From Pseudoalteromonas sp. '520P1 No. 423' (lineage in GTDB: Bacteria > Pseudomonadota > Gammaproteobacteria > Enterobacterales > Alteromonadaceae), in contig NZ_BBZB01000002.1 of NCBI RefSeq assembly GCF_001269985.1, forward strand, positions 930,001 to 994,000: a stretch of 64,000 nt of DNA, in the 5' to 3' direction. The translations under genes and the position numbers were made by a program. The notes beneath the pieces were generated by a model. The model was not told the DNA's origin, searched no databases, and worked only from the letters and a program-made list of their open reading frames with translations. Below are positions 6,536 to 42,900 of this stretch, in pieces. Numbering within the stretch: the first letter of the stretch is position 1; each line of letters starts with the position of its first letter.

Positions 6536-6871
6536 TTATAGTAACCATATGATATAGAGACTAAAGATAAACATTCCAATAGTTATTAAAGTATAAAAAC
6601 TATGAAACACAGTGCTAAAACCTGGTAAAGGTACTTTTTGTGTGTAATCAGTACCAATCTGCCAGCCTGCTAACAGTGAATTTGCCATTAATATAATGAG
6701 TGTAATGGTTGAGTAAACTTTAAACCAAACTGGGCTATGAATAGCTGTCCAAGCCGTGTAATCATACGTTTGAATAGATAAAAATAATCCTAAATAAACT
6801 AATGTGTATAGTGTAATTATTATTGTGCTGAAGCGCTGAAATATCCATTCCCGTGTGCCATTTCTTTTCAT
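6536..6871 (-). CDS. sdhD: Succinate dehydrogenase membrane anchor SdhD, haem-ligand-less variant
   Basis: Small anchor subunit of respiratory complex II. The 111-residue protein has three membrane segments (about 15-35, 52-72, 87-108) and aligns with E. coli SdhD by RNG near the N-terminus and by GWQIGTDY. In E. coli the axial haem b ligand is His71, six residues before the Trp of MWQVLTDY; here the matching residue is Asn64 (LMANSLLAGWQIGTDY). The quinone-site residues Asp82 and Tyr83 are kept (Asp75, Tyr76). ATG 6871 is preceded by GGAG at a good distance and lies 2 bases after the sdhC stop; the longer frame from TTG 6889 is less likely. The genes normally following (sdhA, sdhB) are absent; the next gene is unrelated. 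Confidence 0.85.
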   Translation of the reverse strand: MKRNGTREWIFQRFSTIIITLYTLVYLGLFLSIQTYDYTAWTAIHSPVWFKVYSTITLIILMANSLLAGWQIGTDYTQKVPLPGFSTVFHSFYTLITIGMFIFSLYIIWLL

Positions 6872-6873
6872 TG

Positions 6874-7254
6874 TTAGCTCCACAACCAATATCCAATGAA
6901 TACACTTAGTATTATTCCGAAACCAATAGCTACTTGGGAAATTGCACGTCCGCCTTCTAAACTTTCAAAATAACCGAATTCTTGTATGATATGTTTGAGG
7001 CTTCCCAAAATGTAATAACCTAATGCAGTGAGGAAACCCCAGATAAAAAATTGAGCGACAAATCTTTCTGTTAGTAGTGTTTTTACTTCATCGAAGCCTT
7101 CAGGTGATTTTAAGGAAAAATATAAAGCTGGTAATAATAAAGCCATTCCTACCCAGATAACAACAGCACTTATCCTATGAAGAATTGAAGCAACGCCCAT
7201 TACTGGCAATGCCATGGTGCTTAAATCTAAGTTCTTTGGTCGATTTTTTGTCAT
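6874..7254 (-). CDS. sdhC: Succinate dehydrogenase cytochrome b subunit SdhC, haem-ligand-less variant
   Basis: Membrane anchor of complex II, 126 residues with three membrane segments. It matches E. coli SdhC along its length: RPKNLDLSTMALPV, ASILHRIS, SSPEGF-like KSPEGFDEV, and FLTALGYYILGSLKHIIQEF. The E. coli haem b ligand His84 lies in ALAYHVVVGIRHMM; the equivalent residue here is Tyr81 (ALGYYILGSLKHII). The quinone-site Ser27 and Arg31 are kept (Ser23, Arg27), as is the second His (His88). With sdhD it forms a two-gene operon behind a sigma70-like promoter overlapped by a Fur-box-like site (see 7293-7334). AGGAAAA lies 8 bases before ATG 7254. It may be a second, accessory anchor pair; a regular sdhCDAB cluster would be expected elsewhere in the genome. 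Confidence 0.87.
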   Translation of the reverse strand: MTKNRPKNLDLSTMALPVMGVASILHRISAVVIWVGMALLLPALYFSLKSPEGFDEVKTLLTERFVAQFFIWGFLTALGYYILGSLKHIIQEFGYFESLEGGRAISQVAIGFGIILSVFIGYWLWS

Positions 7255-7292: not shown

Positions 7293-7334
7293 ATTATACA
7301 TATATTAAAAATAATGCAAATGGTTATCATTTAG
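7293..7334. promoter_or_regulatory. Fur-box-like site overlapping the sdhC promoter
   Basis: The 19 bases at 7316-7334 (GCAAATGGTTATCATTTAG) match the Fur consensus at about 13 of 19 positions, including the core TTATCATT. On the minus strand a TATAAT (7293-7298) and TTTGCA (7315-7320) spaced by 16 bases form a sigma70-like promoter for sdhC, and the -35 overlaps the Fur-like site. The site is also upstream of the decayed TonB receptor on the plus strand, so it may have served that gene originally, or both. Confidence 0.55.
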
Positions 7335-7424: not shown

Positions 7425-7708
7425 ATGTTAAATAAAAAAGTACGTTTTACTGCAATTGCCAGTGCTATTTTAGGAATTACAACTCAAGGGGCTGCTGCAT
7501 ATGAACTCGCTACAAGTCCAGAAGATGACTCATTAGAAACAATCGCTGTATACGGTAAAAAAGCCAATCGAAAACTTAAAGATACGGCATCTTCAGTTTC
7601 TGTGATCACAGAAAAGTTTTAAAAAGTTTACAGCATATTAGTATCAGTAGCACAGTTGCTGATATTCCAAACATCGTTGTTTTATCTAGTGCTGTACCTG
7701 TTCATTAA
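7425..7708 (+). pseudogene. TonB-dependent receptor, 5' remnant
   Basis: ATG 7425, after AGGGA, begins a signal peptide (KKVRFTAIASAILGITTQGAAA) and a plug-domain start (DDSLETIAVYGKKANRKLKD, then SSVSVITEK), as in outer-membrane haem or siderophore receptors. A frameshift near 7618 stops the frame at 7620-7622; the plug continues in another frame (LKSLQHISISSTVADIPNIV) to 7708 and then ends. The rest of the receptor, some 550 residues or more, is missing. The end abuts a reversed remnant of a PepSY gene, suggesting a single deletion joined the two genes. Nonfunctional. Confidence 0.75.
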
Positions 7709-12689: not shown

Positions 12690-13733
12690 CTAACGCTTTA
12701 AAAATCGGGTTTCATCGAATACAGTCTCTTTTTTAAGCATATAATAAACGCAACGACCGAGCTTATGCGCCAGCGCTGAAAGTGCTTTTGCTTTGCTCAT
12801 TCTTTTTTGTAATTTTTCAAGGTATTGAGTGGCATTATGGTTATGGCGTAATAACAATACAGCCGCTTCAGAGAAAGCCCATTTTAAATGCGCATTACCA
12901 ATTTTATTGCCCTGTGTGCCATAGGTTTTGCCTGCTGATTCAGCTTTACATTTTACGAGTCTGCAATAAGAAGCAAACTTTTGAACACTCGGGAAGCGAT
13001 TAATATCACCAATCTCGTAAATAATTGTCAGCGCGAGAATACGACCGATGCCATTAATGGTTTGCAAGATATTTAGATGAACGGGGTTATGTTGCTTGGC
13101 CATCTGTTCAATATAATGCTCTAAAGGCTTGAGCTCTTTTTGAAAGCAGTCAAGTATGCCCATATCGAGATTAATAGAGCGTTGTACAACTGGGTCGGGA
13201 AAGTAATAGCGCATTTTTTCTCTATCACATACATTTTTTAAATTGACATTGTGGGCAGGTAGATTGTACTGACTTGCAGTGTTTGCGACATGGGCTTTCA
13301 AATCAGCACCATGACGAACGATTTTGGTTCTGCGACGTAATAAGTCGCGCGTAGCACGCATCTCTTTTTCATAGACATAAGCAAGGGGAAAATTACCGCC
13401 ACGGATCAGTTTAGCGATTTTATATGAATCTATTTTATCGTTTTTAGCTTTACCACCATGAATGGCTTTCATATAAAGGGCATGACCGAGAATAAAATCG
13501 ATATCATGCGCTTTACAAAAATCAGCGACCCAATACCAGCAATGCATACATTCAACACCCACCACAATGTTACCAATGTAGGGCTGTAACAACTTAAGCA
13601 AGGCGGAGGGGTCATCTTTAATTTTCTTGTGAACAAGAATAAGTCCTGTATTATCAATGATACAGACGTAGAGTAACCTGGCATGTAAATCGATACCACA
13701 ATAGTATGGATGCATGTTATTGTAAAAGTTCAT
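12690..13733 (-). CDS. IS110-family transposase
   Basis: A 347-residue DEDD-type recombinase. The N-terminal RuvC-like domain starts YYCGIDLHARLLYVCIID (first Asp in GIDLH) and contains VGVECMHCWYWVADFC (Glu) and KNDKIDSYKIAKLI (the DxxD pair). The C-terminal Tnp2 domain has INGIGRILALTIIYEIGDI and SYCRLVKC. ATG 13733 is chosen because AAGGAG lies 7 bases upstream; the frame is open further up to TTG 13802 but that part reads as noise. It appears intact and could be active. Confidence 0.9.
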   Translation of the reverse strand: MNFYNNMHPYYCGIDLHARLLYVCIIDNTGLILVHKKIKDDPSALLKLLQPYIGNIVVGVECMHCWYWVADFCKAHDIDFILGHALYMKAIHGGKAKNDKIDSYKIAKLIRGGNFPLAYVYEKEMRATRDLLRRRTKIVRHGADLKAHVANTASQYNLPAHNVNLKNVCDREKMRYYFPDPVVQRSINLDMGILDCFQKELKPLEHYIEQMAKQHNPVHLNILQTINGIGRILALTIIYEIGDINRFPSVQKFASYCRLVKCKAESAGKTYGTQGNKIGNAHLKWAFSEAAVLLLRHNHNATQYLEKLQKRMSKAKALSALAHKLGRCVYYMLKKETVFDETRFLKR

Positions 13734-13910
13734 TGAGCTTTCTCCTTTTTGTTTGGTCACTAAAGTATTACGTATAAACGCGATACTTTGGAGGAGGCTC
13801 AATGATTATCAAGTTACTCAAAAGGACGCAAAACGCTTGGCTTGCGCTCCTTCGTCGCTAATTTTAGCCAAGCATTTATGCGCCCATTAGTAAAGCTACA
13901 TGGACTCCCC

Positions 13911-14175: not shown

Positions 14176-15201
14176 TTATTTTACATAATCAATTTGATAT
14201 TCTTTTTCTGAATGTAACAGTGCCCAAATTAAGCGGGCATTCTTTGCAGCTAATGCAACCGTTGCACGTTTAAAACCGCGTCGTTCAATGAGGTCTTTGA
14301 CCCACAGACTCGTTCGGTCTGTTTTATTTTTGCAGTTTGCGATTACTGCTCGAGCACCATGTATCAGGCAAGTGCGAATATGTTTTTCACCTCGTTTACT
14401 GATACGGCCTAATCGCGCAACCCCACCAGTTGAATATTGCCTTGGTACTAAACCAATCCATGCAGCAAAAGAACGACTGGTATCAAAATGTTTAGCATCA
14501 TTTACTGTGGCGACTACGGCTGTTGCAGTGACCTCGCCAATACCTGGAATACTCATAAGCCTTTTGGCGTCTTTCATTTGGTTGGCGAGTTTGTACAGTT
14601 TTCTATCGTATTTGAGTATTTCTGCATTTAAAGATTTAATACTTTGCCATAAATCATTGAGCAATTCACGCGCAAGAAAAGGTAGGTTATTTTCAGCATC
14701 TTCAAGAATACCGTTAATGGCATTTTGTGCAGGGTATCGACCTTTTGGCATGATGATACCGAACTCAGCGAGTAAACCGCGTAATCGGTTTATACGTGCG
14801 GTTCTGTCTTTAATTGCACCTTGTCTGATGCGGTGTAAACACAGCACGGCTTGTTGTTCTTCGCTTTTAATACTGACAAAACGTGTTTTTGGTCTTGTAG
14901 CTGCTTCGCAAATAGCTTCAGCATCATTGGCGTCATTCTTTTCATTTTGGCGATAGGGAATAACAAATTTAGACGCCATAATACGCACATCATGACCGAG
15001 TTTGATAAATTCCCTTGCCCAATAGTGGGCACCGGAGCAAGCTTCCATTGCAATAATACAGGGTGGAAGTTGTGTTATTTCCTCTAATAGCTTGTTTCTT
15101 TTGATAGTTTTTCTTAATTTACACTTGTCATGCTTATCAACACCGTGGATACTAAAAACTAATTTGGCTAAATCAATGCCAACAACTTTAATTAAAGACA
15201 T
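14176..15201 (-). CDS. IS110-family transposase, IS1111 group
   Basis: A 341-residue recombinase with the DEDD catalytic residues in VVGIDLAKLVFSIHGVD (Asp), IIAMEACSGAHYWAREF (Glu) and EKNDANDAEAICEA (Asp-Asp). The C-terminal domain has SIPGIGEVTATAVVATV and AAWIGLVPRQYSTGG, then RISKRGEKHIRTCLIHGARA with the conserved Ser region. Full length and without interruptions, so probably functional. It is only distantly similar to the neighbouring transposase; the two are independent insertions. Confidence 0.95.
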   Translation of the reverse strand: MSLIKVVGIDLAKLVFSIHGVDKHDKCKLRKTIKRNKLLEEITQLPPCIIAMEACSGAHYWAREFIKLGHDVRIMASKFVIPYRQNEKNDANDAEAICEAATRPKTRFVSIKSEEQQAVLCLHRIRQGAIKDRTARINRLRGLLAEFGIIMPKGRYPAQNAINGILEDAENNLPFLARELLNDLWQSIKSLNAEILKYDRKLYKLANQMKDAKRLMSIPGIGEVTATAVVATVNDAKHFDTSRSFAAWIGLVPRQYSTGGVARLGRISKRGEKHIRTCLIHGARAVIANCKNKTDRTSLWVKDLIERRGFKRATVALAAKNARLIWALLHSEKEYQIDYVK

Positions 15202-26426: not shown

Positions 26427-29400
26427 GTGAATAAGATACAATTAATTTCGATATTGATAATATTATTTTTTGCCAATACAAAGTTAGTGTTCGCATCAAT
26501 ATTAATTACTAGTGAAGCGACCCCTACTGCTGTAGTAAATAAGCAATATATTTATGAATTTAAATCAGATTACAATGGCAATCTTTCTACCAATTGGAGT
26601 GTAGACACTTTACCGAGTTGGTTGTATCTACAATACGAGTATAGCGCTGTACCTAAGTCTTTTAATGTTAAATCCCCGCCGTTATCATTGATATCTATGG
26701 CTGCTGATGATATCGGAAACGTTTATGGTGTGCATTTTGAACCTCCTTCATTCCCTATAGGTGTTCGTCAAATATTTTTATATAAGTACGCAACAGATGG
26801 AGAAATTATTCACCTTTTTGATTTTGATTTTAATGAATATTTCGATTTCAGTGACGGTCTTATTATTAATCCTGAACAAATTAAAATACTCTTGATTGAA
26901 TCACAGTTATATATAGTGTACCAAGCAGGTTGGTCTGAAGAAGGAAAAAAATTAAAGATCGGTAAGTATGATCTTAATACAAACATGTTCAATGACTTTG
27001 TTACATTAGGCGGTTACAGTGCCAAGGCCGTGACTGAAAATCAGGGAGATATTTATGTTGTTACTGATAAAGGTATTAAAAAAATATCACGGGAAGGTGA
27101 GATTACTGATATTGGGTCGAATATTAAAGATATAAACCTAACAACGGGTTTAGCATTTTCAGAAGGTGAATTATATTTATCTGGTGAAAATGGTTTATCA
27201 ATTTATGATGATGATTCCGGTGAATTGAAAACGGTATCTGACTTAAATGACATATGTTCAATCAAAGAAGAAGAAAAAGCTGTTAGCGATATTAAAATCA
27301 AAGATACAGGTGATATGTATCTCTCTGGTATTTTTGGAGTTATGCGCTTATCAGCTGATTTAAAATCTTGTTCGTCTTTATTTACAGACAACACTTTATT
27401 AATAGCATTGTCTGCTAATCAACAATTATTTTTATTAGATTCAATAGATGAGAATAATTCAATAAAGCTTTTGCAAAGAATTTCTAATTATTTGGCTGGT
27501 ATACCTACCGACGATGATAGAGGGATACATAAGGTTAAGTTGATGTTGGATGTTGGCAATGAGCACATTGAGCAGGATTTTGAAATTGAAGTTAAATATG
27601 TAGCATATCCACTTACAATTACGGGTAACAATATTATTGGTGAATGGACTTTCGAAGATAGGGAATATGGTCTTAAACTAGAATTAGGTAATAAACAGTA
27701 TATTGATGAGATTTTTACTTTCTCTAGTACTGGATTGCCAAAATGGGCAAGTATTGATAAAAAAGGTACTGTGAGTGGCACGCCCAGGAATGAAGATGTC
27801 ACTCATGAAGGAATAGTAGAAAATGACCCATTATCATATACTATACACGTTTCAGGTGATAAAGGTGGTGAGGGGGAGTTATTAGTTGAATATGCCGTAA
27901 TCAATGTAAATGATACACCAACTATCAGTGGCTCTCCGATAAAATTAATTGTTGTAGGCGAAAAATACGACTTTAAACCAATAGGTAATGACATCGATAA
28001 GTTTGATACTTTGAGATATGAGATTAAAAATATACCTAAATGGGCCAATTTTGATGTTAAGACTGGTACTTTAAGCGGTACGCCTAATCATTCTAATGTT
28101 GGCACCACAGACGGGATTATTATTTCGGTGCATGATGAGATACTCGACGCTGAATTGGCCCCCTTTTCCTTGACTGTATATGAGAAACCAAAAATTAGTG
28201 GTACGCCAGACAAAAACATTGCTGAAGATACGCATTACGAATTTAAACCAGATGTAAGTGCAGATGATAAAACCGTTATTCAAAAAATTAGTATTGACAA
28301 TAAACCTAGTTGGGCAACTTTTGATCCCGAGACGGGAGTGTTATCCGGTACACCTAGTAATCAAGATGTTGGTACAACACAAAATATTGTTATCACACTG
28401 TATGCTAAGCAATATGATGTTGAATATGAACTTAGCTTAGAGGCCTTTAACTTAACTGTCACCAATGTCAATGACACGCCCAGTATTCAAGGTACTCCTA
28501 AATCACGTGTTTTTATAAATCAGCTTTACACTTTTAAACCGGATGCTAATGATAGTGATATAGGCGATACACTCAACTTTAGTATTAATATTCTACCGAG
28601 CTGGGCAAGCTTTGATGAAGTAACAGGTATTTTAAGTGGTACGCCAACTGAAGATGATGTTGATAACATGACTGCCAACATTATTATTAAAGTAACTGAT
28701 AAACAAGGGGCACATTCGAGCCTTGCTCCTTTTTCCTTGACAGTAAAACGGATGATAACCAGTTCGCCTCTTGTTTCGGTGTTTGAAGACCATTTATACA
28801 CTTATATGATTAATCATGTTGATTCTGATAAAAACACCTTTAGTTTGCACACTCCTACTTTACCATCTTGGTTAAAAATGATTAATGGACAAAAAACCAC
28901 TTCATTTCTTAATAAAACAAAATTAAAGCCATTGGCGTTCACAAGCGATCATTCTGGTCATTTTTACATTATTTATTGGCATCCAGATAATGATCATTAT
29001 GGCTTGTATAAATCATCACTTGATGGTGAGTTAACCTTATTAAAAGACTTAACAGCAAATTATCCATCAGATTTTACAATTGATGAAATGCAAAATACGG
29101 ATTTATTAAATACGGATTTATTGATAATAGGTTCGGATTTATATATCGCTTATGAAGATGCTGGCAAGATCACTAAACTTGATGTCAATAACATGACAAA
29201 CGAAGCGATTTATCTGGATAACCTTAATTTGCCAAGAGAAATGGCTTATGCAGGTGGTTACTTATATTTCATTGAAACTGCTGATGAAAATAATAATCAT
29301 TTGCTAAAAAAATACGATCTGTTTGATAACAAAATCGCAGAAACAAAAAATTTAAGTGTAGAAAAGTACGGTAATTTAGTTAGCTTAGATGTTAATTCAA

Positions 29401-32400
29401 ATGGTGATTTATACTTTTTTGGCTTAAATGGAAATACCCTCACCATCGAGATAACGTCAAACACAGGTGAAATAAGCGAATGGGTATTAAAGCACGCTAC
29501 CTTAAAAGAAATAGCACAATTTGATGCTGTAATCACAAACCAAGGAGCGGTTAATTTTAGTTTCGATAATAGTCTATATCGCATAGATGCTAATATAAAT
29601 GCAAACAGTACTTTTCATAGCGTGTCACAATCAGACACAGCTTCTGAAGCTTTTTTTCAACAATTACACGTCTCAGCTGAGGGTCACGTTTTTGTGGCAA
29701 CAGCAAAAGATATCCTTCGTATTACAAATACGACGTATTTATCAGGCGTGCCTCGAAATAATGATGTAGGCTCGCACGCGGTAAAAATACTGTTAATAAA
29801 CGATGGCATGCAAGAAAACCAAGAGTTTACCATAGAAGTTAAAAATACCAATGATGGGCCATATATTTATGGTAACCCAGAACAGCAGGTTTTTGAAGAC
29901 AAAGTATACAGCTTTGTACCCTCTGCATCAGATGATGACTTAGCGTATGGCGATGTGCTGACTTTTAATATTGAAAACAAACCTAGCTGGTTAGACTTTA
30001 ACACAAATGATGGGTCTTTATTAGGTACTCCAGGAAATGACGATGTTGGTACAACAGAGCATATTGTGATCTCAGTAACCGATAGTAGTGGATTGTACTC
30101 TTTATTAGATGCTTTTGATTTAACAGTCACAAATGTCAATGATCCGCCAGAAGTTTTTGGTGACCCAGCGACCACTGTTAATGAAAATAATGAGTATCTA
30201 TTTTCTCCTAAAGTAAGGGATGTGGATAACAACAAGTTCTATTTTAGTATCACTAATAAACCCATTTGGGCTAATTTTGATTTAGATACGGGAGCTTTAA
30301 GGGGTATTCCCACTAATGAAAATATCGGTACTACATCAGGTATCGTGATTACGGTCTCTGATGGTGAGTATAGTGTCAATTTAGCACCATTTAATATAAC
30401 GGTTATCGATTTTAATAATGCGCCAATTGCTCAATCACAGGTCGTGCAGGGTGTTGAGGACATTCCCAAGTCCATTTTACTCTTTGGATCTGATATCGAC
30501 GGTGATAATTTAAGCTTTACGATTGTCAGTAACCCCAAAAATGGCAACCTCAGTGGTCGCGCTCCTAAACTAGAATATACACCCAATCATAACTTTAATG
30601 GCCAAGATAGTTTCACTTTTATTGTAACAGATATTTTAGGTCAAAAATCCACACTCGCCACAGTGAAAATAACGATTACAGCAGTCAATGATCTGCCTGT
30701 CGTGCAAGATGATTACGCTCAATTAAATGAAGATAATAAAGTCAAAATTAATGTATTGGCCAATGATACTGATAGCGATGGTTTTATACAAAAAACAAGT
30801 GTGATGTTAGATACCAATCCAGCAAATGGCACTGTGTCTATTAATACTGCAAATGGCGTGATAACTTATAACCCTAACGCACATTTTAATGGTTCTGATA
30901 GCTTTACTTATACCGTTATTGATAATCAGGGAATTAAATCCAAACCAGCCACAGTGAAAATCGATATCACAGCAATCAATGATCAGCCGTTGGCAAACAA
31001 TGATAGTATTACGACTGTTAAAAATAACAGTATCACCATAGATTTGACTGTTAATGACACAGATATAGAGGACTTGAAACCTAAAGGAGACATGACTATT
31101 ACAGGCTATCCTGCCAATGGTAGTGCTTCTTTGGTCGATGGCAAAGTACTTTATGTGCCAAATGCTGACTATTTTGGCACGGATAGTTTTACTTACTCAG
31201 TAAAAGATGATGACGGGTTAAGCTCTGATATCGCCAAAGTCATTATTACAGTATTAGATAGCAATCAAACACCAGTTGTTGTCAATGATGTCGCAGTGAC
31301 AAATGAAGATACTCCAGTCGTCATTGAGTTAGTGCACAGTGATTTAGGTATCGCATTTAATCCAGAAAACATGATTATTAGCAACCAAGCGACTTCAGGA
31401 CAGGTGAAAATAAATACAGATGCAACTGTTACTTATTCACCCAATAGTGACTTTTATGGAACTGATAGTTTCAGTTATATCATTACTGACAGTGAAAAGA
31501 GCACCTTTTATGACGTATTAGTCAGTATTACGATAAATTCAGTGAATGACGCACCGATTGCAGTTGATGATACAATAACTGATATTACCAAGGGCACAGT
31601 ATATATCATCAATGTATTGGGTAATGATACGGATGTTGATAGCAAGTTAGATAATACATCCTTTGATATTGTGTTAACACCCCACAGTGGCACTGCCATC
31701 GTCAATCCATTGGGTCAAATTGAATACACTCCAAGCGTTAATTTTAACGGTACTGATAGATTGAGTTATACAATACAAGATGCCACAGGTTTAATATCAA
31801 ATGAGGCCTTTGTCGACCTGACGACAGAAGCGTTTAATGAAAAGCCAATTGCAAATGATGATGGCCCTTTTATGCTAAATGAAGATGGTCAGCTCAGTAT
31901 CACAGTGCTAAAGAATGACCAAGATATAGATGGTACGTTAGATGAAACTAAGGTTACTTTAGTCACTAAGCCGACACGCGGTATTGTGCGTGTTAATTTA
32001 GATGGCACTGTTACTTATATTGCTGATAAAGATATCATTGGAAATGATAGCTTTACTTATATAGTTTCCGATAACCTCGGTGCTAAGGCAGTACACCCTG
32101 CTAAAGTCAATCTTGTTATAACAGCACACAATGATAGACCCGTAGGCGAAGATCAATCTGTAGAGGTGATTGAAGATACACCCGTCTCGATTTTATTATT
32201 CGCAGCTGATGTCGACAATGATAAGTTGGATTTTGAGATTGTTAGCGAGCCCAATAATGGCAGTCTGATTGGTCAGCCTCCTGAAATAATATATACGCCA
32301 AATAATAACTTTAATGGTCAAGACAGTTTTACTTTTATGGCGAATGACGGTTCACTCAATTCGGCTATTGCTACGGTTTATTTGAACGTGTTAGCTCAAA

Positions 32401-35400
32401 ATGATCAACCAATTGCAGATTCGATGTCAGTCACAGTGATGGAAGACAAGCCAAGACAGTTTAAGTTAAATGGTCGTGATAGTGATGGTGACAGCTTGAG
32501 TTATCAAATCACTTCTGCCCCAGTAAATGGCACATTAAGTGGTCAAGCACCCGAGCTACAGTATACCCCTAATGCCGACTTTAATGGTCAAGACAGTTTT
32601 ACTTTTATGGCGAATGACGGTTCACTGAATTCGGCTATTGCTACGGTTTATTTGAACGTGTTAGCTCAAAATGATCAACCAATTGCAAATTCGATGTCAG
32701 TCACAGTGATGGAAGACAAGCCAACACAGTTTAAGTTAAATGGCCGTGATAGTGATGGTGACAGCTTGAGTTATCAAATCACTTCTGCCCCAGTAAATGG
32801 CACATTAAGTGGACAAGCACCCGAGCTACAGTATACCCCTAATGCCGACTTTAATGGTCAAGACAGTTTTACTTTTATGGCGAATGACGGTTCACTGAAT
32901 TCGGCTATTGCTACGGTTTATTTGAACGTGCTAGCTCAAAATGATCAACCAATTGCAAATTCGATGTCAGTCACAGTGATGGAAGACAAGTCAACACAGT
33001 TTAAGTTAAATGGCAGTGATAGTGATAGTGATGGTGACAGCTTAAGTTATCAAATCACTTCTGATCCAGTAAATGGCACATTAAGTGGTCAAGCGCCTGA
33101 GCTACAGTATACCCCTAATGCTGACTTTAATGGTCAAGACAGTTTTACTTTTTCTGTACATGATGGCAAGTCCAGATCTGAACCAGTGGCAGTCAATATT
33201 AGCGTAATTGCCCAAAATGATGCCCCTATAGCTGTAGATGATATTTTAAATATGCGTCATTGGCATACAACAGATATTAATGTATTGGCTAATGATCGCG
33301 ATATTGATGGTGATAAACTCAGTATTATAGGTGCCACTGTGAATAATGGTTCAGTAGAGTGGACGGATACGTTAATACGTTATACACCTCAGGATGGATT
33401 TGAAGGTTCAGATGTGATCCAATATATTATTACTGATATAAAGGGCGCATCGTCAAGGGCCTTAGTATTGATTGATATTAATATCGACGATACAGATTTA
33501 CCCGTGATCACTTTACCTAGTAATATTGAAGTGAATGCGACTGCTTTGTTGACTAAAGTTGATTTAGGTGTCGCAACAGCGGTTGATAAAAATGGTCATC
33601 CGCTAGCTGTTGCTTTGTCAAACAGTAGTCCCTTTTTAAAACCTGGGATCAATACGGTTCTATGGCAAGCTACTGACAGTCAACATCGCACGGCGTTAGC
33701 AAGTCAAACTGTTAAAGTTAATCCTCTGATTTCATTAGGAAAAGATGAAATGGCACTAGAGGGCTTTACTGCTTCAATCAATATTTATCTTAATGGGGTC
33801 GCACCAACTTACCCAATATCAATTCCTTATACTATAAAAGGGAGTGCGCAAGCTGGCGTTGACCACAACCTGACAGATGGTACTTTGCTGATAAAATCAG
33901 GTATTGAAGGTAGTATTCGTTTCAAAATTTATGCTGATGATATACCTGAAGATGCAGAAACGATTATTATTGAGCTCGATAACGCACTTAATTTAGGGAG
34001 TAAATATCGCCAGACGATTACTATCAGTGAAGACAATGTAAGCCCAACAGTTGAAGTCTTAGTTGAACAGATGAATGAACCACGTTTATTAGTCAACCAA
34101 GAAGATGGACTTGTAGTAATAAAAGCGCAAATCAACCACCCAAATCCCGATAAAAAATTCAGCTATGAATGGTCAAGTGACCAACAAATTTTGAGTGATC
34201 AGGATCCAACAAGTGATCGTTTTAGTTTTGAACCGACTGATCTTGAAACTGGCTTGTATCATGCGTTACTTAAAGTGACAGATCTCGATGACCCCACATA
34301 TCAAGTAGAGAAAAAGGTCACTTTCAAGTTAGATAAATCAGCAGCGGTACTAAGTAATGCGGATATTGATAATGATGGCATACCTGATAATGTTGAAGGC
34401 CTATCTGACACTGATAAAAATGGTATTGTTGATTACAAAGATAGTATTACTGAGTGTAATGTGATTCCTCAATTAGTCGGAGTATCTGACTCATTCTTAC
34501 TTGAGGGTCAACCTGGTGTATGTTTAAGTTTGGGTAACGAAGCTTTATTTCATGGTTCAAATGGCGCACGTCTACTTCTTAATGATAATGATGATACTAG
34601 TGCCAAGAACATAGGTGGCGTATTTGATTTTATTGCTTCTCCTTTACCAATACAAGGGCAAGCCTATAGCATTGTAATACCCCAGGTACAGCCAATCCCA
34701 ACACAAGCTATTTATCGAAAAAAAGTGGAGACGGGAAAATGGACTGATTTTGTTCAAAATGACACTGAGCAAGTATGGTCTGCAGAAGGAGAATTTGGTT
34801 TCTGTCCGCCTCCAGGTGACAGCCGTTGGCAACGAGGATTACTGGAGGGCGGTTGGTGTATCCAATTAACGATCACAGACGGCGGTCCTAATGATCATGA
34901 TGGTCAAGCAAATGGCACTATAGTTGATCCCGGTGGTGTAGCTGTTATGTTAGACAACAACCATTTACCCATAGCGCTAGATGATACAGTCCAAACACGG
35001 ATTGATACACAAATTATCATAGATGTATTAGTCAATGACAGTGACAGCGATGGTGATGAGCTGTTTATTAATTCCGCCAATGCGATTTTTGGCAGTGTAC
35101 TTATCGATAATAATCGCTTGGATTATCAACCTGCACTAGGGTTCTTTGGTACTGATACCGTTATTTATGGTATTTCTGATGGTCATGGCGGAGTTGCATT
35201 TGCAAAATTAACAGTCAAAACGCGAGAAAATTTAGCCCCTGTAACAGAGGAAGATAATGCTAAAGCTATATCAGGTCAAGAGATCACAATAGATGTCTTA
35301 GCGAATGACAGTGATCCCGAAAATGATACTCTCAGTATAAAAACTGCTGAAGCTGAAAATGGTTCTGTGATGATTAATAGTGACAATACCTTGAGATATC

Positions 35401-35633
35401 AATCTAATAAAGATTTTACAGGGGTTGATATCGTTAAATACAGTATCCAAGATGTATTCGGAGCACAAAGTTCTGGTACGGTTATAATTACCGTAGACTC
35501 TAGTACCACAACAGTCACTACTCAAACATCTGGTGGAGGTACTTTATTTTGGCAATTTATCATTGCTTTATGGTTCCTTCATTTGCTTAGACGCTTTTAC
35601 AGGCAAAAATCCGAGTTTAAAGGTGAATGCTAA
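26427..35633 (+). CDS. Giant cadherin/Ig-repeat surface protein
   Basis: A 3068-residue exported adhesin-like protein. GTG 26427 (GAGGG upstream) starts a signal peptide (IQLISILIILFFANTKLVFA). Two beta-propeller-like regions (about 85-350 and 850-1120) are each followed by cadherin-like Ig (CADG/He_PIG) domains with PSWATFDPETGVLSGTP signatures (about 400-830, 1140-1330). Tandem-95/cadherin-like repeats of about 92 residues (NDxxVxxxEDxP..., NGxxSFTY) cover about 1330-2340, including three nearly identical copies. Then come a HYR-like domain (PVITLPSNIEVNATALLTKV), a Calx-beta-like and a PKD-like domain, a choice-of-anchor-U-type domain with two Cys (AEGEFGFCPPPGDSRWQRGL), two more tandem-95 repeats and a tail SSGTV...TSGGGTLFWQF-helix-LLRRFYRQ that resembles a GlyGly-CTERM sorting signal. 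Likely a surface adhesin. Confidence 0.88.
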   Translation: MNKIQLISILIILFFANTKLVFASILITSEATPTAVVNKQYIYEFKSDYNGNLSTNWSVDTLPSWLYLQYEYSAVPKSFNVKSPPLSLISMAADDIGNVYGVHFEPPSFPIGVRQIFLYKYATDGEIIHLFDFDFNEYFDFSDGLIINPEQIKILLIESQLYIVYQAGWSEEGKKLKIGKYDLNTNMFNDFVTLGGYSAKAVTENQGDIYVVTDKGIKKISREGEITDIGSNIKDINLTTGLAFSEGELYLSGENGLSIYDDDSGELKTVSDLNDICSIKEEEKAVSDIKIKDTGDMYLSGIFGVMRLSADLKSCSSLFTDNTLLIALSANQQLFLLDSIDENNSIKLLQRISNYLAGIPTDDDRGIHKVKLMLDVGNEHIEQDFEIEVKYVAYPLTITGNNIIGEWTFEDREYGLKLELGNKQYIDEIFTFSSTGLPKWASIDKKGTVSGTPRNEDVTHEGIVENDPLSYTIHVSGDKGGEGELLVEYAVINVNDTPTISGSPIKLIVVGEKYDFKPIGNDIDKFDTLRYEIKNIPKWANFDVKTGTLSGTPNHSNVGTTDGIIISVHDEILDAELAPFSLTVYEKPKISGTPDKNIAEDTHYEFKPDVSADDKTVIQKISIDNKPSWATFDPETGVLSGTPSNQDVGTTQNIVITLYAKQYDVEYELSLEAFNLTVTNVNDTPSIQGTPKSRVFINQLYTFKPDANDSDIGDTLNFSINILPSWASFDEVTGILSGTPTEDDVDNMTANIIIKVTDKQGAHSSLAPFSLTVKRMITSSPLVSVFEDHLYTYMINHVDSDKNTFSLHTPTLPSWLKMINGQKTTSFLNKTKLKPLAFTSDHSGHFYIIYWHPDNDHYGLYKSSLDGELTLLKDLTANYPSDFTIDEMQNTDLLNTDLLIIGSDLYIAYEDAGKITKLDVNNMTNEAIYLDNLNLPREMAYAGGYLYFIETADENNNHLLKKYDLFDNKIAETKNLSVEKYGNLVSLDVNSNGDLYFFGLNGNTLTIEITSNTGEISEWVLKHATLKEIAQFDAVITNQGAVNFSFDNSLYRIDANINANSTFHSVSQSDTASEAFFQQLHVSAEGHVFVATAKDILRITNTTYLSGVPRNNDVGSHAVKILLINDGMQENQEFTIEVKNTNDGPYIYGNPEQQVFEDKVYSFVPSASDDDLAYGDVLTFNIENKPSWLDFNTNDGSLLGTPGNDDVGTTEHIVISVTDSSGLYSLLDAFDLTVTNVNDPPEVFGDPATTVNENNEYLFSPKVRDVDNNKFYFSITNKPIWANFDLDTGALRGIPTNENIGTTSGIVITVSDGEYSVNLAPFNITVIDFNNAPIAQSQVVQGVEDIPKSILLFGSDIDGDNLSFTIVSNPKNGNLSGRAPKLEYTPNHNFNGQDSFTFIVTDILGQKSTLATVKITITAVNDLPVVQDDYAQLNEDNKVKINVLANDTDSDGFIQKTSVMLDTNPANGTVSINTANGVITYNPNAHFNGSDSFTYTVIDNQGIKSKPATVKIDITAINDQPLANNDSITTVKNNSITIDLTVNDTDIEDLKPKGDMTITGYPANGSASLVDGKVLYVPNADYFGTDSFTYSVKDDDGLSSDIAKVIITVLDSNQTPVVVNDVAVTNEDTPVVIELVHSDLGIAFNPENMIISNQATSGQVKINTDATVTYSPNSDFYGTDSFSYIITDSEKSTFYDVLVSITINSVNDAPIAVDDTITDITKGTVYIINVLGNDTDVDSKLDNTSFDIVLTPHSGTAIVNPLGQIEYTPSVNFNGTDRLSYTIQDATGLISNEAFVDLTTEAFNEKPIANDDGPFMLNEDGQLSITVLKNDQDIDGTLDETKVTLVTKPTRGIVRVNLDGTVTYIADKDIIGNDSFTYIVSDNLGAKAVHPAKVNLVITAHNDRPVGEDQSVEVIEDTPVSILLFAADVDNDKLDFEIVSEPNNGSLIGQPPEIIYTPNNNFNGQDSFTFMANDGSLNSAIATVYLNVLAQNDQPIADSMSVTVMEDKPRQFKLNGRDSDGDSLSYQITSAPVNGTLSGQAPELQYTPNADFNGQDSFTFMANDGSLNSAIATVYLNVLAQNDQPIANSMSVTVMEDKPTQFKLNGRDSDGDSLSYQITSAPVNGTLSGQAPELQYTPNADFNGQDSFTFMANDGSLNSAIATVYLNVLAQNDQPIANSMSVTVMEDKSTQFKLNGSDSDSDGDSLSYQITSDPVNGTLSGQAPELQYTPNADFNGQDSFTFSVHDGKSRSEPVAVNISVIAQNDAPIAVDDILNMRHWHTTDINVLANDRDIDGDKLSIIGATVNNGSVEWTDTLIRYTPQDGFEGSDVIQYIITDIKGASSRALVLIDINIDDTDLPVITLPSNIEVNATALLTKVDLGVATAVDKNGHPLAVALSNSSPFLKPGINTVLWQATDSQHRTALASQTVKVNPLISLGKDEMALEGFTASINIYLNGVAPTYPISIPYTIKGSAQAGVDHNLTDGTLLIKSGIEGSIRFKIYADDIPEDAETIIIELDNALNLGSKYRQTITISEDNVSPTVEVLVEQMNEPRLLVNQEDGLVVIKAQINHPNPDKKFSYEWSSDQQILSDQDPTSDRFSFEPTDLETGLYHALLKVTDLDDPTYQVEKKVTFKLDKSAAVLSNADIDNDGIPDNVEGLSDTDKNGIVDYKDSITECNVIPQLVGVSDSFLLEGQPGVCLSLGNEALFHGSNGARLLLNDNDDTSAKNIGGVFDFIASPLPIQGQAYSIVIPQVQPIPTQAIYRKKVETGKWTDFVQNDTEQVWSAEGEFGFCPPPGDSRWQRGLLEGGWCIQLTITDGGPNDHDGQANGTIVDPGGVAVMLDNNHLPIALDDTVQTRIDTQIIIDVLVNDSDSDGDELFINSANAIFGSVLIDNNRLDYQPALGFFGTDTVIYGISDGHGGVAFAKLTVKTRENLAPVTEEDNAKAISGQEITIDVLANDSDPENDTLSIKTAEAENGSVMINSDNTLRYQSNKDFTGVDIVKYSIQDVFGAQSSGTVIITVDSSTTTVTTQTSGGGTLFWQFIIALWFLHLLRRFYRQKSEFKGEC
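32308..33160 (+). repeat. Near-identical 270-bp coding repeats
   Basis: ACTTTAATGGTCAAGACAGT recurs at 32308, 32578, 32848 and 33124 (periods 270, 270, 276), with almost the same sequence in between, while neighbouring repeats of the same domain type are diverged. The 276 spacing carries an extra SD pair (6 bases). Recent duplication or gene conversion within the gene. Confidence 0.9.
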
Positions 35634-36919: not shown

Positions 36920-39900
36920 ATGTGGTGTATTTCAAAATCAAAATTATTAATCATTTTATCATTCATATCTATCCTCTCGGGGTGTGGAGATGATTCTGAT
37001 GAAAAAACAATTACCAACAAAGTCAATCAAACAAAGGAATACAACGTAACCACTCAAAGCGATAACAACGGCAGTATCACACCACCTAATGTAACCGTTG
37101 AACACGGTGCAACGACAACCTTTACAGTGAAAGGTAATGAAGGGTTTGAAATAGATGAAGTGAGCGGGTGTAAGGGTAAGCTATCAGGCAATCTTTACAC
37201 AACAGCCCCAGTGACAACAGCTTGCTCTGTTGACGCTAAATTTAAAAAAATCCGATACACAGTAACCGCTAAAAGCGATGGTAACGGCAGTATCACATCA
37301 CCTAATGTAACCGTTGAACACGGTGCAACAACGACCGTTACACTGGAAGCTAATGAAGGATTTGAAATAGATGAAGTGAGCGGGTGTAAGGGTAAACTAT
37401 CAGGCAATCGTTACACAATAGCCCCAGTGACCACCGCTTGCTCTGTTGACGCTAAATTTAAAAAAATCCGATACACAGTAACCGCTAAAAGCGATGGCAA
37501 CGGCAGTATCACACCACCTAATGTAACCGTTGAACACGGTGCAACGACAACCTTTACACTGGAAGCTAATGAAGGGTTTGAAATAGATAAAGTGAGCGGG
37601 TGTAATGGTGAACTATCAGGCAATCGTTACACAACAGCCCCAGTGACCACCGCTTGCTCTGTTGACGCTAAATTTAAAAAAATCCGATACACAGTAACCG
37701 CTAAAAGCGATGGCAACGGCAGTATCACATTAGATAATGTAACCGTTGAACACGGTGAAACAACAACCTTTACAGTTAAAGCTAATGAATGGTTTGAAAT
37801 AGATGAAGTGAGCGGGTGTAAGGGTAAACTATCAGGCAATCGTTACACAACAGCTCCAGTGACCGCCGATTGCTCTGTTGACGCTAAATTTAAAAAGACT
37901 AAACTCACAAGTATTAACTTTAAAGATGATAATCTTAAACAATGTGTGCTAAATACAGGCTTAGAATATATAGTAGGCCTAAAACAACTAAGTTGTGTAG
38001 ATAAATTTATAGAGTCCACTGTAGGTATTGAGCAACTAACCGCGTTGACTACTCTTGACCTTAGTGATAACCAACTTGCTGATATTGATGTATCCAAAAA
38101 CACCGCGTTGACTACTCTTGACCTTAGTGATAACCAACTTGCTGATATTGATGTATCCAAAAACACCGTGTTGACTACTCTTTACCTTAATGATAACGAA
38201 CTGACCAGTATTGATGGTCTTGAACAACTAACCAAGTTGACTGAGCTTAGCATTATTAAAAATCAACTGATCGATATTGATGTATCCAAAAACACCGCGT
38301 TGACTAGGCTTTACCTATACGATAATCAACTAACCAGTATTGACGTATCCAAAAACACCGCGTTGACTACTCTTTACCTTAATGATAACGAACTGACCAG
38401 TATTGATGTTTCCAAGAACACCGAGTTGATTTGGCTTTCCCTGAGTTATAATAACGAACTGAACAGTATTGATGGTCTTGAACAACTAACCAAGTTGACT
38501 GAGCTTAGCATTATTAAAAATCAACTGATCGATATTGATGTATCCAAAAACACCGCGTTGACTAGGCTTTACCTATACGATAATCAACTAACCAGTATTG
38601 ACGTATCCAAAAACACCGCGTTGACTACTCTTTACCTTAATGATAACGATCTGACCGATATTGATGTATCCAAAAACACCGCGTTGACTAGGCTTTACCT
38701 ATACGATAATCAACTGACCAGTATTGACGTATCCAAAAACACCGCGTTGACTACTCTTTACCTTAGTGATAACCAACTTGCTTATATTGATGTATCCAAA
38801 AACACCGCGTTGACTACTCTTTACCTTATTGATAACGATCTGACCGGTATTGATGTATCCCATAACACCGCGTTGGAGGAAATTTATGTACAAAACAACC
38901 CTCTTCGTTCTTGCATAAGCAACGGCATTGAGGACTGCAATTATTACACGGTAACCTATAAAGGTGATATCAACGGCAATATCACACCATCTAATGTAAC
39001 CATTGAACCAAGTGCAACTGCAACCGTAAAAGTTGAACCAGGTGAAACAACGACCTTTACACTGGAAGCTAATGAAGGGTTTGAAATAGATGAAGTGAGC
39101 GGGTGTAAGGGTAAACTATCAGGCAATCTTTACACAACAGCCCCAGTGACCACCGTTTGCTCTGTTGACGCTAAATTTAAAAAAATCCGATATACAGTAA
39201 CCGCTAAAAGCGATGGCAACGGCAGTATCACACCACCTAATGTAACCGTTGAACACGGTGCAACAACGACCTTTACACTGGAAGCTAATGAAGGGTTTGA
39301 AATAGATGAAGTGAGCGGGTGTAAGGGTAAACTATCAGGCAATCTTTACACAACAGTCCCAGTGACCGCCGCTTGCTCTGTTGACGCTAAATTTAAAAAA
39401 ATCCGATACACAGTAACCGCTAAAAGCGATGGCAACGGCAGTATCACACCACCTAATGTAACCGTTGAACACGGTGCAACAACAACCTTTACACTGGAAG
39501 CTAATGAAGGATTTGAAATAGATAAAGTGAGCGGGTGTAAGGGTAAGCTATCAGGCAATCTTTACACAACAGTCCCAGTGACCGCCGCTTGCTCTGTTGA
39601 CGCTAAATTTAAAAAAATCCGATACACAGTAACCGCTAAAAGCGATGGCAACGGCAGTATCACACCACCTAATGTAACCGTTGAACACGGTGCAACAACA
39701 ACCTTTACACTGGAAGCTAATGAAGGATTTGAAATAGATAAAGTGAGCGGGTGTAAGGGTAAGCTATCAGGCAATCTTTACACAACAGCCCCAGTGACCG
39801 CCACTTGCTCTGTTGACGCTAAATTTAAAAAAATCCGATACACAGTAACCGCTAAAAGCGATGGCAACGGCAGTATCACACCACCTAATGTAACCGTTGA

Positions 39901-42900
39901 ACACGGTGCAACAACGACCTTTACACTGGAAGCTAATGAAGGGTTTGAAATAGATGGAGTGAGCGGGTGTAAGGGTAAACTATCAGGCAATCTTTACACA
40001 ACAGCTCCAGTGACCGCCACTTGCTCTGTTGACGCTAAATTTAAAAAAATCCGATACACAGTAACCGCTAAAAGCGATGGCAACGGCAGTATCACACCAC
40101 CTAATGTAACCGTTGAACACGGTGCAACAACGACCTTTACACTGGAAGCTAATGAAGGGTTTGAAATAGATGAAGTGAGCGGGTGTAAGGGTAAACTATC
40201 AGGCAATCTTTACACAACAGCTCCAATGACCGCCACTTGCTCTGTTGACGCTAAATTTAAAAAAATCCGATACACAGTAACCGCTAAAAGCGATGGCAAC
40301 GGCAATATCACACCACCTAATGTAACCGTTAAACACGGTGCAACGACAACCTTTACACTGGAAGCTAATGAAGGATTTGAAATAGATGAAGTGAGCGGGT
40401 GTAAGGGTAAACTATCAGGCAATCTTTACACAACAGCCCCAGTGACCACCGTTTGCTCTGTTGACGCTAAATTTAAAAAAATCCGATACACAGTAACCGC
40501 TAAAAGCGATGGCAACGGCAGTATCACACCACCTAATGTAACCGTTGAACACGGTGCAACAACAACCTTTACAGTGAAAGCTAATGAAGGATTTGAAATA
40601 GATGAAGTGAGCGGGTGTAAGGGTAAACTATCAGGCAATCTTTACACAACAGTCCCAGTGACCGCCGCTTGCTCTGTTGACGCTAAATTTAAAAAAATCC
40701 GATACACAGTAACCGCTAAAAGCGATGGCAACGGCAGTATCACACCACCTAATGTAACCGTTGAACACGGTGCAACGACAACCTTTACACTGGAAGCTAA
40801 TGAAGGATTTGAAATAGATAAAGTGAGCGGGTGTAAGGGTAAGCTATCAGGCAATCTTTACACAACAGTCCCAGTGACCACCGCTTGCTCTGTTGACGCT
40901 AAATTTAAAAAAATCCGATACACAGTAACCGCTAAAAGCGATGGCAACGGCAGTATCACACCACCTAATGTAACCGTTGAACACGGTGCAACAACAACCT
41001 TTACACTGGAAGCTAATGAATGGTTTGAAATAGATAAAGTGAGCGGGTGTAAGGGTAAACTATCAGGCAATCTTTACACAACAGCCCCAGTGACCACCGC
41101 TTGCTCTGTTGACGCTAAATTTAAAAAAATCCGATACACAGTAACCGCTAAAAGCGATGGTAACGGCAGTATCACATCACCTAATGTAACCGTTGAACAC
41201 GGTGCAACAACAACCTTTACACTGGAAGCTAATGAAGGGTTTGAAATAGATGAAGTGAGCGGGTGTAAGGGTAAACTATCAGGCAATCTTTACACAACAG
41301 CCCCAGTGACCGCCACTTGCTCTGTTGACGCTAAATTTAAAAAGACTAAACTCACAAGTATTAACTTTAAAGATGATAATCTTAAACAATGTGTGCAAAA
41401 TACAGGCATAGTATATGTAGTAGACCTAAAAAAACTAAGTTGTATAGATAAATCTATAGAGTCCACAGGGGGTCTTGAACTACTAAAATCGTTAATTTAT
41501 CTTAACCTTAGTGATAACATACTGAGCAGTATTGATGGTCTTAAACAACTAACCGCGTTGAATGAACTTTACCTTAGTGGAAACCAACTGAAAGATATTG
41601 ATGTATCCAAAAACACCGCGTTGAATGAACTTTACCTTAGTGGAAACCAACTGAAAGATATTGATGTATCCAAAAACACCGCGTTGACTACTCTTGACCT
41701 TGGTGATAACAAACTGGAAGATATTAATGTTTCCAATAACAAAGAGTTGACTTGGCTTGGCCTTCATCAGAACAAACTGAAAAATATTAATGTATCCAAG
41801 AACAAAGAGTTAACTAGTCTTTACCTTCATGAGAACGAACTGGGGGTTATTGATGTTTCCAATAACGAAAAGTTGAAGGATCTTCAACTTAGTCATAACA
41901 AACTGAAAAATATTAATGTATCCAATAACAAAGAGTTGAGCTATTTTGACATTAATCATAACGAACTGAACGAGATTGATGTTTCCTTTAACACCAAGTT
42001 GGAACGGCTTGGTGTTCTTGGAAACAAACTGACCAAAATTGATGTAAGAGATAATACAAATATAGACTATTTTTTTATTGGATCAAATGTTATTTGTAGA
42101 GGCGATATTTGCCCTCCTGGAAATCGATTAAAACTCACAAGTATTACCTTTGATGATAAATATCTTCAAGAATGTGTGGAAAAAACACGCGTAGATTATG
42201 ACTTATATTATGTAGAAGACCTAAAAATACTAAGTTGTACAGATAAATCTATAGAGTCCACTGTGGGTCTTGGAAAACTATACTCGTTAACTTCACTTGA
42301 ACTTAATCGTAACAAACTGACCAGTATTGATGGTCTTGAACAACTAGACAGGTTGACTTATCTTGACCTTGGTAATAACGAACTGAGCAGTATTAATGGT
42401 CTTGAACAACTAGACAGGTTGACTTATCTTGACATTGGTGATAACAAACTGAGCAGTATTGATGGTCTTGAACAACTACACAGGTTGACTTATCTTGACA
42501 TTAGTGGAAACCAACTTGCTAATATTGATGTGTCCTATAACACCGCGTTGAATGAACTTAACCTTAGTAATAACAAACTGAGCAGAATTGTTGGACTTAA
42601 CGAACTAGCCATATTGACTAAGCTTAACCTTAGTGGAAACCAACTTGATAATATTAATGTGTCCTATAACACCGCGTTGAATGAACTTAACCTTAGTAAA
42701 AACAAATTTGATAATATTAATGTGTCCTATAACACCGCGTTGAATGAACTTAACCTTTGTAAAAACAAACCGAGCAGTATTGTTGGACTTGATCAACTAG
42801 CCATATTGACTATGCTTGAACTTAGTAAGAACGAACTGACCAGTATTGATGTTTCCAATAACAAAGAGTTGACTTATCTTGACATTATTGATAACAAACT

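Follow-up and report, generated by a model that had tools for sequence, protein, structure and literature searches.

The sdhC'D' pair and the complex II genes of its host

Two adjacent genes were analysed in the window, by which we mean the whole stretch of 64,000 nucleotides:

6874-7254, minus strand: sdhC', intact, 126 amino acids, matching TIGR02970 and PF01127
6536-6871, minus strand: sdhD', intact, 111 amino acids from its ATG, matching TIGR02968

The gap between them is 2 bases, and a longer TTG start at 6889 is also listed for sdhD', giving a 117-residue form (6536-6889). By curated models the two genes are members of the SdhC and SdhD families: sdhC' scores 82.2 bits against TIGR02970 (cut-off 52.3) and 69.3 bits against PF01127 (cut-off 25.8), and sdhD', scored on the 117-residue form, reaches 56.9 bits against TIGR02968 (cut-off 41.8). 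Other models place them below their cut-offs, namely the stricter NF007021 for sdhC' (113.7 against 180) and PF01127 and NF007022 for sdhD' (13.7 against 25.8 and 41.5 against 170). Profiles built from the relatives of SdhC' and of SdhD' match E. coli 1nek_C and 1nek_D, respectively. The original prediction held that no sdhA or sdhB follows the pair, and indeed none is found within 20 kb around sdhC'D' (locus L009). By eye, Tn7-type-like transposition genes lie just left of the window (L009:106-4419) and two IS110-like transposases lie within it (12690-13802 and 14176-15201), so that the surroundings of sdhC'D' look, by eye only, like a mobile neighbourhood. The window also contains two very large open reading frames, 26427-35633 (3068 codons) and 36920-43864 (2314 codons).

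The host genome consists of two contigs of 4.07 and 1.32 Mb, the window being on the smaller. A search for a second, canonical sdhCDAB was successful: it stands next to gltA on the larger contig (C1:2659.5-2662.8k) and has both histidines, which rules out sdhC'D' as the only sdhCD of the genome. One SdhB above cut-off is present in the host, and PF00890 (E 1e-10 or better) finds two proteins, SdhA and a second one on C1 that we take to be NadB; a private SdhAB elsewhere in the genome is ruled out by these searches. Neither sdhA nor sdhB is present in any of the 37 member loci, and a single SdhB is the rule among carrier genomes (22 of 23). These results indicate that sdhC'D' has no private SdhAB. 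The pair also does not form an operon with sdhAB, although such an operon is usual for type C complex II without being strictly defining.

Haem-ligand and quinone-site residues

In E. coli, His84 of SdhC and His71 of SdhD are the axial ligands of haem b. Alignment to E. coli places the following codons of the window pair at these two sites:

7012-7014, minus strand: Tyr81 of SdhC', at the site of His84
6680-6682, minus strand: Asn64 of SdhD', at the site of His71

The loss of both ligands, as originally claimed for this pair, is confirmed by this alignment, and on realignment no histidine falls at either site. The accompanying claim that the quinone site is kept holds as well, with SdhC Ser27 and Arg31 and SdhD Asp82 and Tyr83 all present; SdhC His30 and His91 and SdhD Arg20 are also kept in the alignment. 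Thus, the pair has the quinone site of type C complex II and lacks by sequence the defining haem feature of that type, a bis-His haem b between SdhC and SdhD. The two histidines are lost jointly across the relatives. Among the database matches, SdhC' has Tyr in 91 of 93 and Phe in the other 2, while SdhD' has Asn in 82 of 82; in the loci that were fetched, Tyr is found in 37/37 SdhC' and Asn in 36/36 readable SdhD', the SdhD' of L082 being broken and L048 and L066 being one record. Misalignment as the source of the histidine loss is ruled out by the alignments of both matches and loci. Normal SdhC has His84 in 53 of 53 cases, all beside sdhA, and none of 13 Tyr-type SdhC copies in Marinomonas-like genomes is beside sdhA. 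Two loci were left out of these counts as non-members. One, L084 (8039-8422, genome G047), is a lone SdhC-like gene, 30% identical, that keeps His84 and has no SdhD' match in its stretch; it is a different stray anchor gene. The other, L065 from a Desulfarculaceae genome, was the weakest of 18 loci and is a normal SdhD beside its own sdhAB.

Across the locus set, SdhC S27, R31 and H91 and SdhD R20, W77, Q78, D82 and Y83 are kept. Beyond the ligand sites, the haem-less forms have invariant residues of their own. In SdhC these are Trp38, Lys90 and Gln94 (Gln94 in 93/93), at positions where normal SdhC has Phe38 throughout and mostly Arg90 and Met94; in haem-less SdhD they are Gln19 and Ala75 (36/36), where E. 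coli has Val and Gly. Two of these positions, SdhC 38 and SdhD 19, are described as mutated sites around the haem in the part of PMC3290573 drawn on here. The same source gives SdhC R31 and H91 and SdhD R20 and Q78 as contacts of the haem propionates, with SdhC H91, SdhD R20 and SdhB H207 holding the distal propionate in E. coli. Since these contacts are retained, the haem pocket is not wholly dismantled, and other residues may ligate haem in SdhC'D'. One explanation would be that the pair still carries haem, with Tyr81, SdhC His30 or His91 as ligands, and works as an alternative cytochrome b or a haem sensor. Besides the propionate contacts, the conservation of His30 (91/93) and His91 (93/93) in SdhC' speaks for it. 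However, both residues are conserved in normal SdhC too, so that no new role is needed to account for them, and SdhD' has its invariant Asn at the ligand site and no conserved histidine in the locus set. H45 and H90 of the window SdhD' were considered as a replacement histidine and rejected, because they are absent as conserved sites in distant members. We consider a haem-carrying pair unlikely.

Distribution, and genomes that appear to lack the normal anchor

The nearest named relative is Pseudoalteromonas NBT06-2. Compared with it, dN/dS is 0.093/0.595 for sdhC' and 0.132/0.838 for sdhD', about 0.16 in both, so that both genes are under purifying selection and pseudogene drift is ruled out. 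A tree built from 92 SdhC proteins groups the haem-less forms into one clade, with a weak support of 0.55 (0.53 without column 84). Within the genus, 20 of 99 sampled genomes are carriers, G047 with its His84 being left out. A family scan of 395 genomes found at least three carriers outside the genus above 80 bits, among the matches listed; more distant forms may score below this threshold. A class-wide sample of 369 genomes at E 1e-19 contained no carrier but the host. Among the named carriers are Pseudoalteromonas NBT06-2, Planctobacterium, Marinifaba, nine Marinomonas records, Neptuniibacter, two Oceanospirillaceae MAGs, an Osedax symbiont and Glaciecola. The sdhC'D' pair is a patchy, accessory two-gene unit, and judged by its sequences the predicted haem-less SdhC'D' is a family and not an accident.

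Normal SdhC is also present in 33 of 36 carrier genomes (22/23 and 11/13 in two sets). The three carriers in which none was found are a Glaciecola MAG, Marinomonas sargassi C2222 and a Neptuniibacter MAG (L057, G835); the missing normal sdhCD was read at its locus in the one named strain and in one MAG. In M. sargassi (L250), intact sdhA (590 aa) and sdhB (236 aa) stand behind gltA, and in place of the roughly 830 bases that hold sdhC and sdhD in relatives there are about 330 unalignable ones. The SdhC proteins of 11 relatives, used as queries, gave no match in this gap nor, at E 1e-3, in 52 stretches that cover about a third of the genome; for the remainder we rely on a PF01127 search of the genome, which found SdhC' only. 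SdhC'D' thus appears to be the only anchor left in this species. In the Glaciecola MAG (L168), sdhA and sdhB are also intact, and the stretch between gltA and sdhA, which contains no N, has no sdhC or sdhD frame. What it does contain is a 26-residue remnant of the end of sdhD (E 0.003-0.007) and, by eye only, a possible sdhC start. A second SdhB of this MAG sits in what is by eye a fumarate-reductase-like operon. Among 12 further genomes of its genus, G327 and G349 are without a PF01127 match; both are also without sdhA and are therefore uninformative on anchor loss. Because M. sargassi and the Glaciecola MAG keep SdhAB, SdhC'D' is most simply the working anchor in both. The original prediction that a haem-free pair could replace the haem anchor gains support from these two genomes, both with intact sdhAB and with no such pair found but SdhC'D'. 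A binding of SdhC'D' to SdhAB in the membrane would likewise fit the single SdhB and the missing normal sdhCD.

The neighbourhoods of sdhC'D' bear on another explanation, that the pair serves a partner other than SdhAB. In yeast, Sdh3-Tim18 serves TIM22, and sdhC'D' stands beside sdhAB in 0 of 37 member loci. However, there is no common neighbour that could be such a partner, since no other ORF cluster occurs in more than 5 loci and the commonest occur in 5, among the matches listed, close relatives sharing neighbours as expected. Two residues that meet SdhB H207 at the haem propionate in E. coli by the account in PMC3290573, SdhC H91 and SdhD R20, are kept, and normal sdhCD is missing in two genomes. 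We regard another partner as very unlikely. Some of the neighbourhoods point to iron: two TonB receptors, an AraC regulator and a PKS gene are near sdhC'D' in L076 (L077 and L078 look alike by eye), a sigma factor, FecR and two TonB receptors in L081, a suf-like operon, named by eye, in M. sargassi (L050), and, in the Osedax symbiont (L055), a copper-protein gene that has a Fur-like site of its own. Many P. luteoviolacea-like copies stand after an AbgT-type transporter gene (L067 tested), and others have nothing telling nearby.

Fur-type promoter sites and a proposed role in iron shortage

One further feature lies in front of the pair:

7313-7331, minus strand: Fur-box-like site AATGATAACCATTTGCATT, about 60 bp upstream of the sdhC' ATG

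A 19-mer overlapping AATGATAACCATTTGCATT matches 14 of 19 positions of the Fur consensus, as a consensus match only. The genome contains two exact matches to the AATGATAACCATTTGCATT pattern, one upstream of sdhC' and the other (L116, C1:1691888) near a gene for a plastocyanin/azurin-type copper protein, perhaps another iron-sparing substitute. A search of the genome that allowed two mismatches was noisy, with 25 matches against 14 for the reversed pattern; near-matches from it adjoin five TonB-receptor genes. We relied on the exact matches and on promoter statistics instead of this search. What is by eye the start of a TonB-receptor-like gene lies at 7425-7622 on the plus strand and stops after 65 codons, a remnant that diverges from sdhC' across the intergenic stretch with the Fur-like site. 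Because the remnant shares this stretch, the box in the window is no proof by itself, and it is the promoters of the relatives that carry the point.

Each promoter was scored by its best match, within 220 bases upstream, to a 19-base Fur consensus, for which we took that of E. coli. Fur-type boxes are enriched before sdhC': a score of at least 14 is reached by 15 of 28 distinct sdhC' promoters, by 0 of 24 normal sdhC promoters (p 8e-6), by 11 of 261 neighbouring promoters of the same loci (p 4e-11) and in 1.4% of shuffles. The 28 promoters are what remained of 37 after near-identical upstream stretches were dropped. For the normal promoters, 3 of 53 loci in which no start was found were dropped and near-copies merged, reducing 50 to 24. 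For the neighbours, open reading frames starting within 700 bp of sdhC' were left out (313 left) and near-copies dropped (261 left); this control supersedes a first one (32/362 at 14 or more) that still included sdhC' promoters. Under a stricter grouping, 9 of 18 promoter groups have a box of at least 14 and 9 do not, and three promoters in a PKS/TonB locus (L031, L032, L033) score only 10. The sdhC' promoters of M. sargassi and of the Glaciecola MAG both have a weak Fur-like match of 12/19, which would fit release from iron control, although two cases prove nothing. In M. sargassi a perfect 15-base inverted repeat, AAGATAAATACAAAT/ATTTGTATTTATCTT, lies at L050:9493-9532 upstream of sdhC' (start 9606) and is possibly another operator. 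Taken from these promoter sequences, sdhC'D' is probably switched on when iron is short. This link to iron and the two natural replacements go beyond the original prediction.

Such sites would also suit a decoy that pulls SdhAB off electron transport in iron shortage, a negative regulator and not a working anchor. The pair has no private SdhAB, and expression of normal sdhC falls in low iron in Pseudomonas J380, according to the portion of PMC8069873 cited here, a fall that Fur-type sites before a decoy would fit. However, a decoy would not account for the kept quinone-site residues, nor for M. sargassi and the Glaciecola MAG, with intact SdhAB and SdhC'D' as the only pair found, and we judge it improbable. 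Another explanation makes the ligand loss an adaptation to another quinone or to fumarate reduction, with the iron link secondary. Invariance beyond the ligand sites, as with the changed residue Gln94 of SdhC, would suit it, whereas the Fur-type sites, the iron-uptake neighbours and the unchanged quinone-site residues tested argue against it; we see little chance that it is right.

We consider it likely that sdhC'D' encodes an iron-responsive, haem-free anchor isoform of complex II that shares the one SdhAB and is able to replace the haem anchor. Iron-loaded Fur would repress sdhC'D', and when iron, and hence haem, runs short the pair would be made and take the single SdhAB dimer of the cell to the membrane. 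The conserved quinone site would then receive electrons directly from the last Fe-S cluster in SdhB, and complex II would keep working without haem b. Tyr81 of SdhC' and Asn64 of SdhD' may hold the four-helix bundle in place of the His-haem-His bridge, helped by the residues that refill the pocket (Trp at SdhC 38 and Gln at SdhD 19). In at least two lineages the normal anchor would have been lost and SdhC'D' would have become the only pair. Haem is one iron beside the nine in the three clusters of SdhB, so that the iron saved would be small and haem supply would be the better motive. Half of the promoter groups lack a box of at least 14, the SdhC' clade is weakly supported and the propionate contacts are retained, all of which we count against the iron-responsive, haem-free anchor. 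A precedent in E. coli cuts both ways. Haem-free Sdh of E. coli keeps activity and supports growth on succinate, at lower catalytic rates (PMC3290573, citing Tran 2007), the direct route for electrons from [3Fe-4S] to quinone being what makes this possible, and haem b is needed to stabilise the isolated enzyme, as the same text has it. The slower rates and the haem-dependent stability of the isolated enzyme are likewise counted against our explanation.

The proposed exchange resembles some known systems. Among the iron-sparing isoenzymes under Fur control, FumC replaces FumA and SodA replaces SodB, an iron-light form taking over from an iron-rich one in low iron; in the case proposed for sdhC'D' only the membrane anchor would be exchanged, and not the catalytic subunits. 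E. coli fumarate reductase differs from SdhC'D' in having its own FrdAB, in one operon, and an anchor of another sequence family. It is alike, as a type D complex II, in an anchor without haem (PMC10238741). Compared with the type C anchor SdhCD of E. coli (1nek), sdhC'D' is alike in sequence family and quinone-site residues, and differs by the absence of both axial ligands, its position outside an sdhAB operon and its Fur-type promoter site. The engineered haem-free E. coli Sdh (Tran 2007, PNAS, via PMC3290573) is likewise a complex II that works without haem b, made by mutation, whereas SdhC'D' is a natural, conserved pair known from sequence. Complex II of S. cerevisiae, as described in the sections of PMC13066397 used here, has lost haem from a type C anchor, has Tyr at one ligand site with a His-Tyr hydrogen bond in place of haem, and has paralogous anchors (Shh3 and Shh4); Tyr81 and Asn64 could do likewise in SdhC'D'. 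The yeast complex differs in being the main mitochondrial enzyme, in keeping one His and in not being an iron-regulated bacterial isoform. Full-text literature searches, with subscription papers mostly outside their scope, turned up no description of a haem-less sdhCD that is an orphan or under Fur control.

The function of haem b in complex II has long been an open question, because the E. coli enzyme still works without it. The present findings may offer, within a single cell, a haem-containing and a haem-free anchor matched to one SdhAB, and at least one species seems to live with the haem-free anchor only. On balance, we incline to the view that iron supply decides which membrane half of complex II marine gammaproteobacteria use, the haem-containing or the haem-free one, on an unchanged catalytic half, that the two genes of the exchangeable anchor move together from lineage to lineage, and that some lineages have given up the haem anchor, showing haem b of complex II to be dispensable in nature. 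If this is true, a respiratory complex would join the enzymes that bacteria rebuild in iron shortage, in seawater where iron can limit growth.
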